A stretch of DNA of 33,332 nt from Oscillospiraceae bacterium (lineage in GTDB: Bacteria > Bacillota > Clostridia > Oscillospirales > Ruminococcaceae): assembly GCA_022769365.1 (NCBI GenBank), contig JALEJO010000035.1:1-33332 (forward strand), in the 5' to 3' direction. Shown here piece by piece: positions 18,509 through 23,140 of the stretch (within the stretch, counting starts at the first letter, position 1; every line of letters starts with the position of its first letter). The notes under the pieces were generated by a model. The model saw only the letters and a list, made by a program, of their open reading frames with translations, made no database searches and had not been told where the DNA came from. The position numbers and the translations under genes were made by a program.

Positions 18509-18546
18509 TAATCAAAAAAGACACCTTACGGTGTCTTTTTTGATTA
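18509..18546. terminator. Bidirectional terminator between the dockerin gene and folA
   Basis: TAATCAAAAAAGACACC-ttac-GGTGTCTTTTTTGATTA; its last bases are the folA stop codon. Confidence 0.88.
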
Positions 18547-19032
18547 ATATTCTTTATAAATAGTAAATCTGTATTTACCATCTTTAAATTTTTTCCATTC
18601 AGAGCAAAAAACAGGCTTTTTTTGAAATTTAACAGGAAAATAAGCATCAGAATTTTTATTTTCAGAAATAATTTCTGTTATATAAAATTTTTCGCAGTCA
18701 TCAAGGAAAAGTTTATATATTTCACTTCCGCCTATAATAAAAATATCTTCAGATTTAAAATTATTTTTTTTGCATAATTCAAAAAAATCTTTTTTTGAAT
18801 TTATAATAATGCAGTTTTCAGCGGAAAAATTTTTATTCCTTGTAAAAATGATATTGATTCTGTTTGGGAGAGGTTTTCTGTTTGGCAAACTTTCAAAAGT
18901 TTTTCTCCCCATAACAATTATTTTTCCTGTTGTAAGATTTTTGAAATATTCCTTATCTTCTTTTATGTTGTATAAAAGATTGTTTTTATATCCTATAGCG
19001 TTATTTGAGTCCAGTGCTGCTATTATGTTCAT
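18544..19032 (-). CDS. folA: Dihydrofolate reductase
   Basis: MNIIAALDSNNAIGYKNNLL, GKIIVMGRKTFESLP, IFIIGGSEIYKLFL. Confidence 0.95.
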   Translation of the reverse strand: MNIIAALDSNNAIGYKNNLLYNIKEDKEYFKNLTTGKIIVMGRKTFESLPNRKPLPNRINIIFTRNKNFSAENCIIINSKKDFFELCKKNNFKSEDIFIIGGSEIYKLFLDDCEKFYITEIISENKNSDAYFPVKFQKKPVFCSEWKKFKDGKYRFTIYKEY

Positions 19033-19849
19033 ATTCTTCCTTAATATCCTTTATATATTCTTTCTTTAAGGGGTGAATTGCATAAGGTGCAATTTCACAC
19101 AAAGGAACAAGAACAAAATCACGCTTTGTCATTTCAGGATGAGGAACAACAAGAGTATCTGTATTTATTACCATATCATCGAACAAAAGTATGTCGAGGT
19201 CAAGAGTACGAGGTCCCCAGTGTATTTTCCTTTCACGTCCTTCTGAATTTTCTATTTCCTGAAGAATTGAAAGAAGTTCTTCGGGTTCAAGAATTGTCTT
19301 GACTTTAGCAACGGCATTTAAAAAATCAGGCTGTTCAACATATCCGACAGGTGCAGTATTATAGAAGGAAGAAATTTTTTCAAGTTTTACAAATTCTCCA
19401 AGTTCTTCTATTTTTGCAAGTGCATTTTTTAGATGCTGTTCTCTGTTGCCAATATTTGAACCAAGTGCAATATATGCGGTATGCCTTGAACGTGTTATGT
19501 TAACTGCCATATAATCAAAATGTGCATCAACAGGTGCAGATGGTTTTTTAACAGCAAGTTCAATTTTATCTATATTTGTGAATTTTGCAAGAAGAATGCC
19601 CGCTAAACTCTGTGCAGCGGTTTCAATAAGGTTTGCACTTTTGCTTTTGAAAACTTTTTTAATTACTTCTGTCACTTCGGCATAATTAACGCTGTTTTCA
19701 ACATTATCGGTTGTTGCAGCACCTAAAACATCAACATAAAGTTTTGCATCAATATAAAATTTTTGTCCGAGTTTTTTTTCTTCTGTAAGTACGCCGTGAT
19801 TTGCATATATTTCAAGATTTTTTATTTCAATATAATCATTTCTAATCAT
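19001..19849 (-). CDS. folBK: Bifunctional dihydroneopterin aldolase / HPPK
   Basis: FolB (IEIKNLEIYANHGVLTEEKKLGQKFYID) fused to FolK (AYIALGSNIGNREQHLKNAL...GPRTLDLDILLFDD). Track start 19867 is TTG; ATG at 19849 has GGAAAGG upstream. Confidence 0.94.
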   Translation of the reverse strand: MIRNDYIEIKNLEIYANHGVLTEEKKLGQKFYIDAKLYVDVLGAATTDNVENSVNYAEVTEVIKKVFKSKSANLIETAAQSLAGILLAKFTNIDKIELAVKKPSAPVDAHFDYMAVNITRSRHTAYIALGSNIGNREQHLKNALAKIEELGEFVKLEKISSFYNTAPVGYVEQPDFLNAVAKVKTILEPEELLSILQEIENSEGRERKIHWGPRTLDLDILLFDDMVINTDTLVVPHPEMTKRDFVLVPLCEIAPYAIHPLKKEYIKDIKEEYEHNSSTGLK

Positions 19850-19853
19850 TTTA

Positions 19854-20660
19854 TCAAGCCTTTCCAAGAATTCTTTCTGTCATTTTGATTATTCTTTTGT
19901 TTTCAAGTACGTCATGAACTCTTACGAACATAGCATTTTTTATAACTGCAAGTACAGTTGTTGCAAGAGTTCCTTCTACTCTCTGGTCAGCAGGGAGGTC
20001 AAGAGTAAGCCCTATCATAGATTTTCTTGAAGTTCCAAGAAGAACAGGATAGCCGAGAGTGTTAAGCATTTCAAGCTTGTTTGTTATTTCAAGATTCTGT
20101 TCATAGCTTTTAGCAAATCCAACACCAGGATCAAGCATAATATTTTCTTTTTTAACACCCGCTTTAAGTGCAATATCAACGCTTTCCTTTAAATCAGCAA
20201 GAACATCTTCCATAAAGTTATTGTAAACAGCCTCTTTTCTGTTGTGCATAAGACAGCAGGTTTTGTTGTATTTTGCTGTTATATCAGCCATTTTTTCATC
20301 ATATTTGAAACCCCATATATCATTCATAAGGTCAGCACCTGATTTTATTGCGGCTTCGCCAACGGCTGATTTATAAGTATCAATTGATACAGGAATATCA
20401 AAATTCTTTTTTATTGCTTCGATAACAGGTGCGACTCTGCTTATTTCTTCTTCATCAGAAATTTTTGTATAGTTAGGTCTTGCTGATTCACCGCCTACAT
20501 CTATGATGTCAGCACCGTCTTTTATCATCTGTTCAGTATGTTTAAGTGCTGCATCAATATTGTTGAACTTACCGCCGTCTGAAAAAGAGTCAGGTGTAAC
20601 GTTTAATATACCCATAATATAAGTTCTGTTTTCTTCAAATTTTCTGTTTCCGATTACCAT
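19854..20660 (-). CDS. folP: Dihydropteroate synthase
   Basis: MGILNVTPDSFSDGGKF, DVGGESARPNY, SIDTYKS, DPGVGFAKS, GTSRKSMIG. Confidence 0.97.
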   Translation of the reverse strand: MVIGNRKFEENRTYIMGILNVTPDSFSDGGKFNNIDAALKHTEQMIKDGADIIDVGGESARPNYTKISDEEEISRVAPVIEAIKKNFDIPVSIDTYKSAVGEAAIKSGADLMNDIWGFKYDEKMADITAKYNKTCCLMHNRKEAVYNNFMEDVLADLKESVDIALKAGVKKENIMLDPGVGFAKSYEQNLEITNKLEMLNTLGYPVLLGTSRKSMIGLTLDLPADQRVEGTLATTVLAVIKNAMFVRVHDVLENKRIIKMTERILGKA

Positions 20661-20677: not shown

Positions 20678-22429
20678 TTAAATATATTTTGTTGTGTGGG
20701 ATTTATCTTCAATACTCCAGTAACATTTGTCATATGCCAGGCATTCAGGGCAATTTCTTGAAAATTTGTCTGCCAGATAAAAAATATCGCTGAAAGTATC
20801 GGGATTGCTGCATTTTTTTCGGTGTGAACCTATGGTTTCGCATATTTTTTGTATTTCTGATTGATTAAATCCGCATTCAGAAAGAATTTCTTTTGAAATT
20901 GCAATGCTATGTTCTTCATGCGAGATACCATCATTATATTCATAGACTCTGCCGAGGTCGTGCATAAATGCAGCAGCGTATATAATATCTTTTTTTTCAT
21001 TTATATTATATTCGCAAGATAAAGTATAACATATTTCAGCCGTTTTTACAAGATGATCAAAGCCGTGTTTACAAAATATTCTGTCTTTTTCGTATTCATC
21101 AATTAAATTTATCAGAGAAATAAATTTTTCATTCGATAGAATTTTTGAAACTCTTTTAAGTTCACCATTGAATATTTCATCACAACAAGATTTTATAAAT
21201 CTTAAATATGAAAGTGAACCGAATGAAATTATAACATCAGGCTTGTCTGCCATAGCTGAAAGAACTGCTGATAAGTATTCTTTGCAGTATGTTATGTTAT
21301 TATATTTTTCTGAAAGCTGCAAAGCCAGTTCTTTTGAAGGAACAGCACGGTTTCCATATGCATCAACTGTATATATTTTATAAGCATAAGGAAAAATTAT
21401 ATCTGCACATTTTAAATATTCTTTATCTTTAAAAGTTCCGAAAATAAGGCATATTTTTTTATTTTGAAAATATTTTTCAATATTTTCGGAAAGTTTTTTT
21501 GCAGCACCTTCATTGTGAGCACCATCTGCTATAATAAGCGGTGATTTATTTAAAATTGTAAATCTTCCGAATAAAATATCATTTTTCAAAAATGCATTTT
21601 TTATACCAGCATTGATATTATATTTTTCTTTTAAAATATCGAAAACTTCAAGTGCAAGTGCAGCATTTTCAGGTTGATAAGTTCCGATTAAATCAGTGAA
21701 AAGATTTTCATATGATTTATAGGAAAAAGTTTGTCCGCCAATATTTTGACTTAATATTTTTATTTTGTTTTTATCAACAATATGAAGTTTGGAATTTTTT
21801 CCTTTTGCTGTTTGTTTTATAATGTCAAGCGAGTCATATGTTCCAACACCAGCACATACAGGGCAGTTTTGTTTTATAATTCCGCATTTTTGTTTTGCAA
21901 TTTCCGGAATTGTTTTACCAAGAAAAGCTGTGTGGTCAATGCTTATTGTTGTTATAACACTGACATCAGGTGAACTTATAATGTTTGTTGCATCTGAAAG
22001 TCCGCCCATACCGCATTCTATAACGGCAAAATCGACTTGTTTTTCCTTAAAATAAAGAAAAGCAGCTGCTGTTTCTGCTTCAAATTCAGTTATTGATATA
22101 TTATTTTTTTCTGCTTCGTTTATTACTCTGTTTGTATAGGAAAGATAATCGTTTTCTGTGATATATTTTCCGTTTATATTTATTACTTCATATTTTTCAG
22201 AAACAGCAGGGGAAGAATATCTTCCGACTTTAAAACCGCATAAGATGAGAATATTCTGAATAAAATAACCTGTTGAACCTTTTCCATTTGTGCCTGCAAT
22301 ATGAATTGTTTTAATTTTATTCTGAGGGTTTGAAAAAACTCTGCATATATCAGTTTCGGGTCTAAGTCCGGGTATGCAGCCTTTTTCTTTGAGTGCTGTT
22401 ATTTTTAAATCAGGTGTATTATTACACAT
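20678..22429 (-). CDS. folC: Folylpolyglutamate/dihydrofolate synthase fused to C-terminal HD-domain phosphohydrolase
   Basis: FolC P-loop IHIAGTNGKGSTGYF, YSSPAV, IECGMGG, SIDHTAFLG, IADGAHNEGA; continuous ORF into an HD domain (HGFDHLVKTAEIC...AAAFMHDLGRVYEYN...EEHSIAISKEIL) with CPECLAYDKCYW near the end. Confidence 0.9.
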   Translation of the reverse strand: MCNNTPDLKITALKEKGCIPGLRPETDICRVFSNPQNKIKTIHIAGTNGKGSTGYFIQNILILCGFKVGRYSSPAVSEKYEVININGKYITENDYLSYTNRVINEAEKNNISITEFEAETAAAFLYFKEKQVDFAVIECGMGGLSDATNIISSPDVSVITTISIDHTAFLGKTIPEIAKQKCGIIKQNCPVCAGVGTYDSLDIIKQTAKGKNSKLHIVDKNKIKILSQNIGGQTFSYKSYENLFTDLIGTYQPENAALALEVFDILKEKYNINAGIKNAFLKNDILFGRFTILNKSPLIIADGAHNEGAAKKLSENIEKYFQNKKICLIFGTFKDKEYLKCADIIFPYAYKIYTVDAYGNRAVPSKELALQLSEKYNNITYCKEYLSAVLSAMADKPDVIISFGSLSYLRFIKSCCDEIFNGELKRVSKILSNEKFISLINLIDEYEKDRIFCKHGFDHLVKTAEICYTLSCEYNINEKKDIIYAAAFMHDLGRVYEYNDGISHEEHSIAISKEILSECGFNQSEIQKICETIGSHRKKCSNPDTFSDIFYLADKFSRNCPECLAYDKCYWSIEDKSHTTKYI

Positions 22430-22459: not shown

Positions 22460-23140
22460 TTAATTATCAGATGCTTCTGTTTCTGAAATATTTTCAGTTG
22501 TTATTTCATCAGATGTATTTTCTATACTATCGTCAGATATATTTTCTGTATCATTATTATTCTGAGTTGCATCAGCTGTATTTTTTGAAAAATCTGAAAA
22601 TTCAATTGTAAGGCTGAAATTTTCCATAGTAAATGTAAGTGGTGTGCCTTGTTTGTCTGTTATAAGTTCAAATTCGCCATTGTCAATATTGCCTTTTATT
22701 GAACAAAGGTCGTTTTCGACAGTGCATTTTATATCCGAAGTATTATTGTTCTCATCATCAGAAGTTTCACAATTCAAAGCTTCAAGATTATCAGAAACAA
22801 GTATCAGATTCTGCAAAGCAGACTGAACAGGCAATGCATCTTTTGGTATTGAAAATGCAAGACCTTTATAAGATGCTGAAACCATTCCGTCCTCAAAAAC
22901 AAGTTCAACACCTGATAAAGTAGAAGGCTGTGAAAATTCAGCGTTCCAGATTTTGTCAGATTTTGTTATGTTTGCATTGAATTCATTTTCTCCTGAAATA
23001 ATATGTATCTGAGAAGAAAAGCTGCCTGCAAGGCAATCGGGAACAGAAGAAACTTCTGTTGCAGGTGTACTTATGCACCCTGTAAGTATTGCAGATGCAG
23101 GCATAGCAAGCATAAAGTATTTAAAAAAATTGAATTTCAT
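22460..23140 (-). CDS. Lipoprotein of unknown function (possibly LolA-like fold), acidic Ser/Thr/Asn-rich tail
   Basis: Signal peptide with lipobox LTGC; RBS GGAGG before ATG. LolA-like fold is a guess from the alternating strand pattern. Confidence 0.6.
   Translation of the reverse strand: MKFNFFKYFMLAMPASAILTGCISTPATEVSSVPDCLAGSFSSQIHIISGENEFNANITKSDKIWNAEFSQPSTLSGVELVFEDGMVSASYKGLAFSIPKDALPVQSALQNLILVSDNLEALNCETSDDENNNTSDIKCTVENDLCSIKGNIDNGEFELITDKQGTPLTFTMENFSLTIEFSDFSKNTADATQNNNDTENISDDSIENTSDEITTENISETEASDN

Follow-up and report, generated by a model that had tools for sequence, protein, structure and literature searches.

A folate operon of a gut-type Oscillospiraceae bacterium, lying in the window (the whole stretch of DNA analysed, 33,332 nucleotides), encodes a protein in which FolC is joined to an HD domain of the FolQ2 family, and this domain is, judged from sequence, likely to be a metal-dependent hydrolase that converts dihydroneopterin triphosphate to dihydroneopterin for FolB. 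Of all parts of bacterial folate synthesis, the removal of phosphate after FolE and before FolB is the least well defined, and a discrete, nearly pathway-confined HD family fills much of this gap in the phylum to which the window belongs. The first-pass annotation had put the fused HD domain forward as the missing phosphatase of this step; that proposal gives the best fit to the linkage, co-occurrence and gene order described below, but it is not novel, being the published prediction of FolQ2 from 2007 (PMC1971073), reached anew via a fused member. What is new is the recurrent fusion to FolC, the quantified co-occurrence with the pathway, and the presence in fusion genomes of an additional FolC that is not fused. 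The features of the window are as follows.

20678..22429, minus strand: FolC-HD fusion gene, 583 aa, a single open reading frame with an ATG start and GGAG upstream
21212..22354, minus strand: FolC (dihydrofolate/folylpolyglutamate synthase) part, aa 26-406; TIGR01499, 307 bits against a cut-off of 163
20681..21160, minus strand: predicted HD hydrolase (FolQ2-type) domain, aa 424-583; PF01966 and the family profile
19854..20660, minus strand: folP, dihydropteroate synthase (DHPS); TIGR01496, 318 bits against a cut-off of 162.6
19001..19867, minus strand: folB-folK fusion (dihydroneopterin aldolase/HPPK); TIGR00525 at 120 bits and TIGR01498 at 158 bits, each over its cut-off
18544..19032, minus strand: folA, dihydrofolate reductase; PF00186, 146 bits
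16414-18495, plus strand: gene for a large extracellular protein, adjoining the folate operon; the protein carries a type I dockerin and a carbohydrate-binding Cthe_2159 domain
22460-23140, minus strand: small predicted lipoprotein, immediately upstream of folC-HD; neither Pfam nor NCBIfam gave a match

The description of the gene as one uninterrupted reading frame, FolC followed by HD, inside a folate operon was confirmed, with folP, folB-folK and folA downstream, and with gaps or overlaps of less than 50 nt along the run folC/HD-folP-folBK-folA. Inspection of the fusion reading frame found the FolC part to be complete, with its AGTNGKGS P-loop and DGAHN motif intact, and a Pfam scan of the fusion protein (P0001, whose 583-aa numbering is used throughout for residues) placed the Mur-ligase FolC domains PF08245 and PF02875 over cut-off, matched PF01966 (HD) to aa 457-558 at 45 bits against a cut-off of 22, and returned no Nudix match. 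Alignment with stand-alone relatives puts the start of the HD protein proper at about aa 424. There is no in-frame ATG, GTG or TTG between aa 393 and aa 489 of the reading frame, and the ATG at aa 393 is inside FolC with no Shine-Dalgarno sequence visible upstream; with no usable internal start, the HD part is therefore expected solely as a fusion with FolC. The earlier remark that the window holds neither folE nor a Nudix gene is correct yet uninformative, as the genome has its folE outside the window (contig C70:18072-18620, L035). It is flanked there by genes resembling queD, queE, queC and queF (named by sequence resemblance), and its product thus presumably supplies both queuosine and folate synthesis. 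No riboswitch or other RNA element was found within the window at gathering thresholds.

The HD part belongs to a sharply bounded family. As sole query it retrieved relatives in five genomes of its own family at 92-114 bits, other HD proteins scoring at most 35, and across Clostridia the members of the family score at least 163 bits against the family profile, with the next HD proteins at 62 or below. Homologues that are 39% identical include both stand-alone and fused forms, the usual form being a stand-alone protein of about 160 aa. Among the five same-family relatives, three (L003-L005) are stand-alone in the order folC-HD-folP-folBK, one (L006) is stand-alone in the order folE-HD-folP-folBK, and the fifth (L002) is, like the window gene, a fusion of FolC and HD. 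The pattern H..HD..H..H..D is typical of a two-metal HD hydrolase, and its residues H459, H490-D491, H504, H536 and D554 are invariant in 141 distinct sequences, that of the window included, which suggests that the domain is such a hydrolase. The family also has the conserved motifs ER.RxFCxH and C-x2-C-x5-C, and the three cysteines of the latter (C560, C563 and C569), present in 140/141 sequences, suggest a putative structural metal site. An AF2 model of the domain is all-helical and confident (pLDDT 93.4). At position 465 (21033-21035) the window copy has Glu where 140/141 family sequences have Arg, a change that may alter substrate binding; taken together with a fairly long tree branch (0.77), this indicates that the activity or specificity of the window copy may have drifted.

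To place the family in its genomic setting, a scan of GTDB contigs was used that matched approximately 560 HD relatives, the best 80 of which were kept for tabulation of loci; in these best 80, folP adjoins the HD gene in every case (80/80), and the order folC-folE-HD-folP-folB-folK is seen in 52/80. An independent sample consisted of 195 Clostridia genomes, each at least 95% complete. With the HD family called at 163 bits or more, the family was present in 40 genomes, all 40 of which hold FolE, FolB and DHPS, and in none of the 137 genomes without this full set (Fisher 7e-28, with kinship not corrected for). The comparison within the window's own family, in which most species are without DHPS, is better controlled for relatedness: the HD gene occurs in 10 of 149 genomes, and all ten are among the 13 with DHPS. 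Ten Clostridia genomes with FolE and without either FolB or DHPS were in every case without the HD gene, so that the family tracks folate synthesis and not FolE alone. In 39/40 HD-bearing Clostridia no more than 5 kb separates the HD gene from folP, folB or folE, and two genomes (G217 and G246) have the order folE-HD-folB. Of the loci selected in other classes of the phylum, 20/20 were in folate clusters, one of them with pabA-pabB-pabC-folE-folP and one adjoining formate-THF ligase. A lack of folate-gene linkage among stand-alone homologues had been named beforehand as evidence that would count against the phosphatase proposal; in all three of these sets of loci the homologues proved strongly folate-linked. 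The single member in the Clostridia sample without folate-gene linkage (L128, on contig C191 of genome G162) is accompanied in the same genome by a separate, complete folE-folP-folB-folK operon (L194).

Proteins of this kind have been described before. HDIG proteins in folate clusters, exemplified by CPE1020 of Clostridium perfringens, were named FolQ2 by de Crécy-Lagard et al. in 2007 and predicted to be an alternative to FolQ, a prediction made without experimental verification (PMC1971073), and pathway reconstructions have since included FolQ2 among their accepted roles (PMC6593275). A search of the open-access literature (subscription papers lay outside it) found no experimental test of FolQ2 since 2007, no paper naming it beyond these two, and no FolC-HD fusion in earlier papers. 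The window family and the FolQ2 of 2007 are alike in being HD/HDIG hydrolases by prediction, in occurring in Firmicutes folate clusters beside folE, folP, folBK or fhs, and in the role proposed for them; the window domain itself combines intact HD metal ligands with a folate-cluster location upstream of folP-folBK-folA. Family, taxon and neighbourhood suggest orthology between the window family and CPE1020, and Clostridium-labelled relatives (L080 and L107) fall within the same HD family on the tree. Unlike the usual FolQ2, the window member is C-terminal to FolC in a fusion and has exchanged a near-invariant Arg for Glu. The 2007 annotation now has strong genomic support, and the role of FolQ2 remains predicted. 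As NCBIfam has no model naming the family (scan of P0001 and its relatives), its members carry a generic HD annotation. The family is directly assayable, and it would sharpen calls of folate prototrophy in gut bacteria; the pathway to which the predicted FolQ2 step belongs is a drug target.

The other enzyme proposed for this step is the Nudix protein FolQ/NudB (dihydroneopterin triphosphate pyrophosphatase), which has the same proposed place in the pathway as the window HD domain but an unrelated fold. Few genomes hold a recognisable FolQ/NudB, and removal of the last phosphate has been ascribed to unspecified phosphatases (PMC1971073). In a search of 60 genomes, some holding the HD family and others not, no protein scored above the curated NudB cut-off, so that the co-occurrence of the fusion with a dedicated Nudix folate enzyme, which the first-pass annotation would have taken as evidence against its proposal, was not seen. 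Four Nudix proteins were found in the window's own genome, the best of them scoring 38 bits against the NCBIfam NudB cut-off of 103; a non-orthologous Nudix enzyme or a general phosphatase, beyond detection by profile, may be an alternative in this genome, which is about 91% complete. Across the Clostridia sample, 18 of the 58 genomes with a complete pathway are without the HD family, indicating that another enzyme is able to fill the step. In four HD-less, folate-making genomes of one family, a Metallophos_2 phosphoesterase gene (PF12850) is directly upstream of folP and is a possible, unrelated candidate to replace the HD enzyme in the same step, at the following positions.

L184:4585-5085, minus strand: Metallophos_2 phosphoesterase gene
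L185:4771-5274, minus strand: Metallophos_2 phosphoesterase gene
L188:2019-2507, plus strand: Metallophos_2 phosphoesterase gene
L192:4966-5529, minus strand: Metallophos_2 phosphoesterase gene

In several other HD-less genomes the operon has no hydrolase gene between folE, folP, folB and folK.

By the proposed route, FolE would make 7,8-dihydroneopterin triphosphate, the HD domain with its bound divalent metals would strip phosphate, acting on the triphosphate, the monophosphate or both, and the resulting dihydroneopterin would pass to FolB. The sequence is compatible with the release of pyrophosphate, of single phosphates or of the whole triphosphate, any of which may occur. Enzymes of the dGTPase/SAMHD1 type, which are HD proteins, remove the whole triphosphate from dNTPs, and by analogy the HD domain could be a one-step triphosphohydrolase (dihydroneopterin triphosphate to dihydroneopterin and tripolyphosphate) that takes the place of two enzymes, the Nudix pyrophosphatase and a monophosphate phosphatase that has never been identified, with the repeated fusion coupling the early pterin step to the dihydrofolate synthase step as its putative benefit; this more specific scheme is tentative and on the whole unlikely. 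The part of the first-pass annotation that appealed to archaeal MptB found no support. MptB, which acts in methanopterin synthesis as an Fe(II) cyclic phosphodiesterase, is described in that annotation as an HD-superfamily metalloenzyme acting on a dihydroneopterin phosphate, and on that description would resemble the window domain in superfamily and in the dihydroneopterin phosphate proposed as substrate of the latter. The analogy is weakened, however, because the 2',3'-cyclic phosphate that MptB opens comes from another cyclohydrolase, MptA (PMC3087415), whereas all 40 HD-bearing Clostridia and the window's genome carry a type-I FolE, an enzyme that yields the triphosphate, and MptB-type cyclic-phosphate chemistry was down-weighted for this reason.

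A different possibility is that the HD enzyme has a housekeeping function, clearing damaged or dead-end phosphorylated pterins, recycling a by-product, or acting on another pterin or folate intermediate. HD enzymes have diverse nucleotide-like substrates, and the complete pathways that do without the family, several with nothing between folE, folP, folB and folK, would fit an enzyme that is not obligatory for synthesis; however, the way in which the HD gene and the pathway are lost together in the family of the window, the operons in which it stands between folE and folB, and the want of any other recognisable dihydroneopterin triphosphate hydrolase in the genomes searched for NudB make this improbable.

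The fusion itself recurs. FolC-HD fusions were found in six distinct proteins (that of the window, L002/L058, L050, L057, L139 in genome G096 and L195 in genome G209), and a tree built from the HD part requires four changes of the fusion label, with well-supported forks forcing three or more of them, although bootstrap support is not fully settled. With at least three forced changes, the join has been gained or lost repeatedly, in a setting in which folC directly precedes the HD gene. This recurrent fusion to a folate enzyme is independent support for the FolQ2 prediction. That the window fusion is instead a fortuitous read-through without function, or an artefact in which a mistake of assembly or sequencing deleted a stop codon, was considered in view of the separate, adjoining folC, HD and folP genes of close relatives and of the internal Met that the other fusions retain at or near the HD start; it is quite improbable, given that the window copy has lost this start codon, leaving its HD part dependent on the fusion, and that the six fusion proteins come from unrelated assemblies on several branches. 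It is possible that the fusion is real but neutral, which would have no bearing on the predicted activity of the HD domain.

A second, unfused FolC was found in each fusion genome checked (G000, which is that of the window, G014, G096 and G209). Three relatives (G007, G017 and G020) have one FolC each, and DHPS was not detected in these three. A putative division of labour would give the dihydrofolate synthase step of the de novo pathway to the operon FolC and polyglutamylation to the second FolC. In the window's genome the unfused copy is at contig C2:2747-3910, the operon FolC being an extra paralogue.

Comparison with characterised HD proteins and solved structures gave distant matches. The nearest solved structure, and the sole convincing match in a search of the PDB, is 2pq7, a predicted HD hydrolase from an uncultured Thermotogales bacterium for which no function is known (profile 8e-13, fold E 4e-4, TM approximately 0.6); the profile match spans positions 14-135 of 161, ending before the C-terminal cysteine motif of the window family. 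YqeK, YfbR and SAMHD1/dGTPase have the HD fold and the H/HD/D metal pattern in common with the window domain, but the similarity is weak and below cut-offs. Membership of the YqeK, RNase Y, Cas3'' or dGTPase families was rejected, the matches being far below curated cut-offs; for YqeK, TIGR00488 had no match to P0001 at E 0.1, and members of the HD family reach at most 22 bits against its cut-off of 70. These weak resemblances to YqeK, RNase Y and dGTPase-type proteins, along with a nearest structure of no known function, would leave room for a regulator of folate synthesis that hydrolyses a nucleotide or second messenger and is not a pathway enzyme, which is very improbable given the sub-threshold scores, the family's own conserved motifs and a restriction to complete-pathway genomes that would be unexpected of a regulator. 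Beyond the operon, the dockerin-bearing protein encoded on the opposite strand suggests a cellulosome-type lifestyle for the organism.
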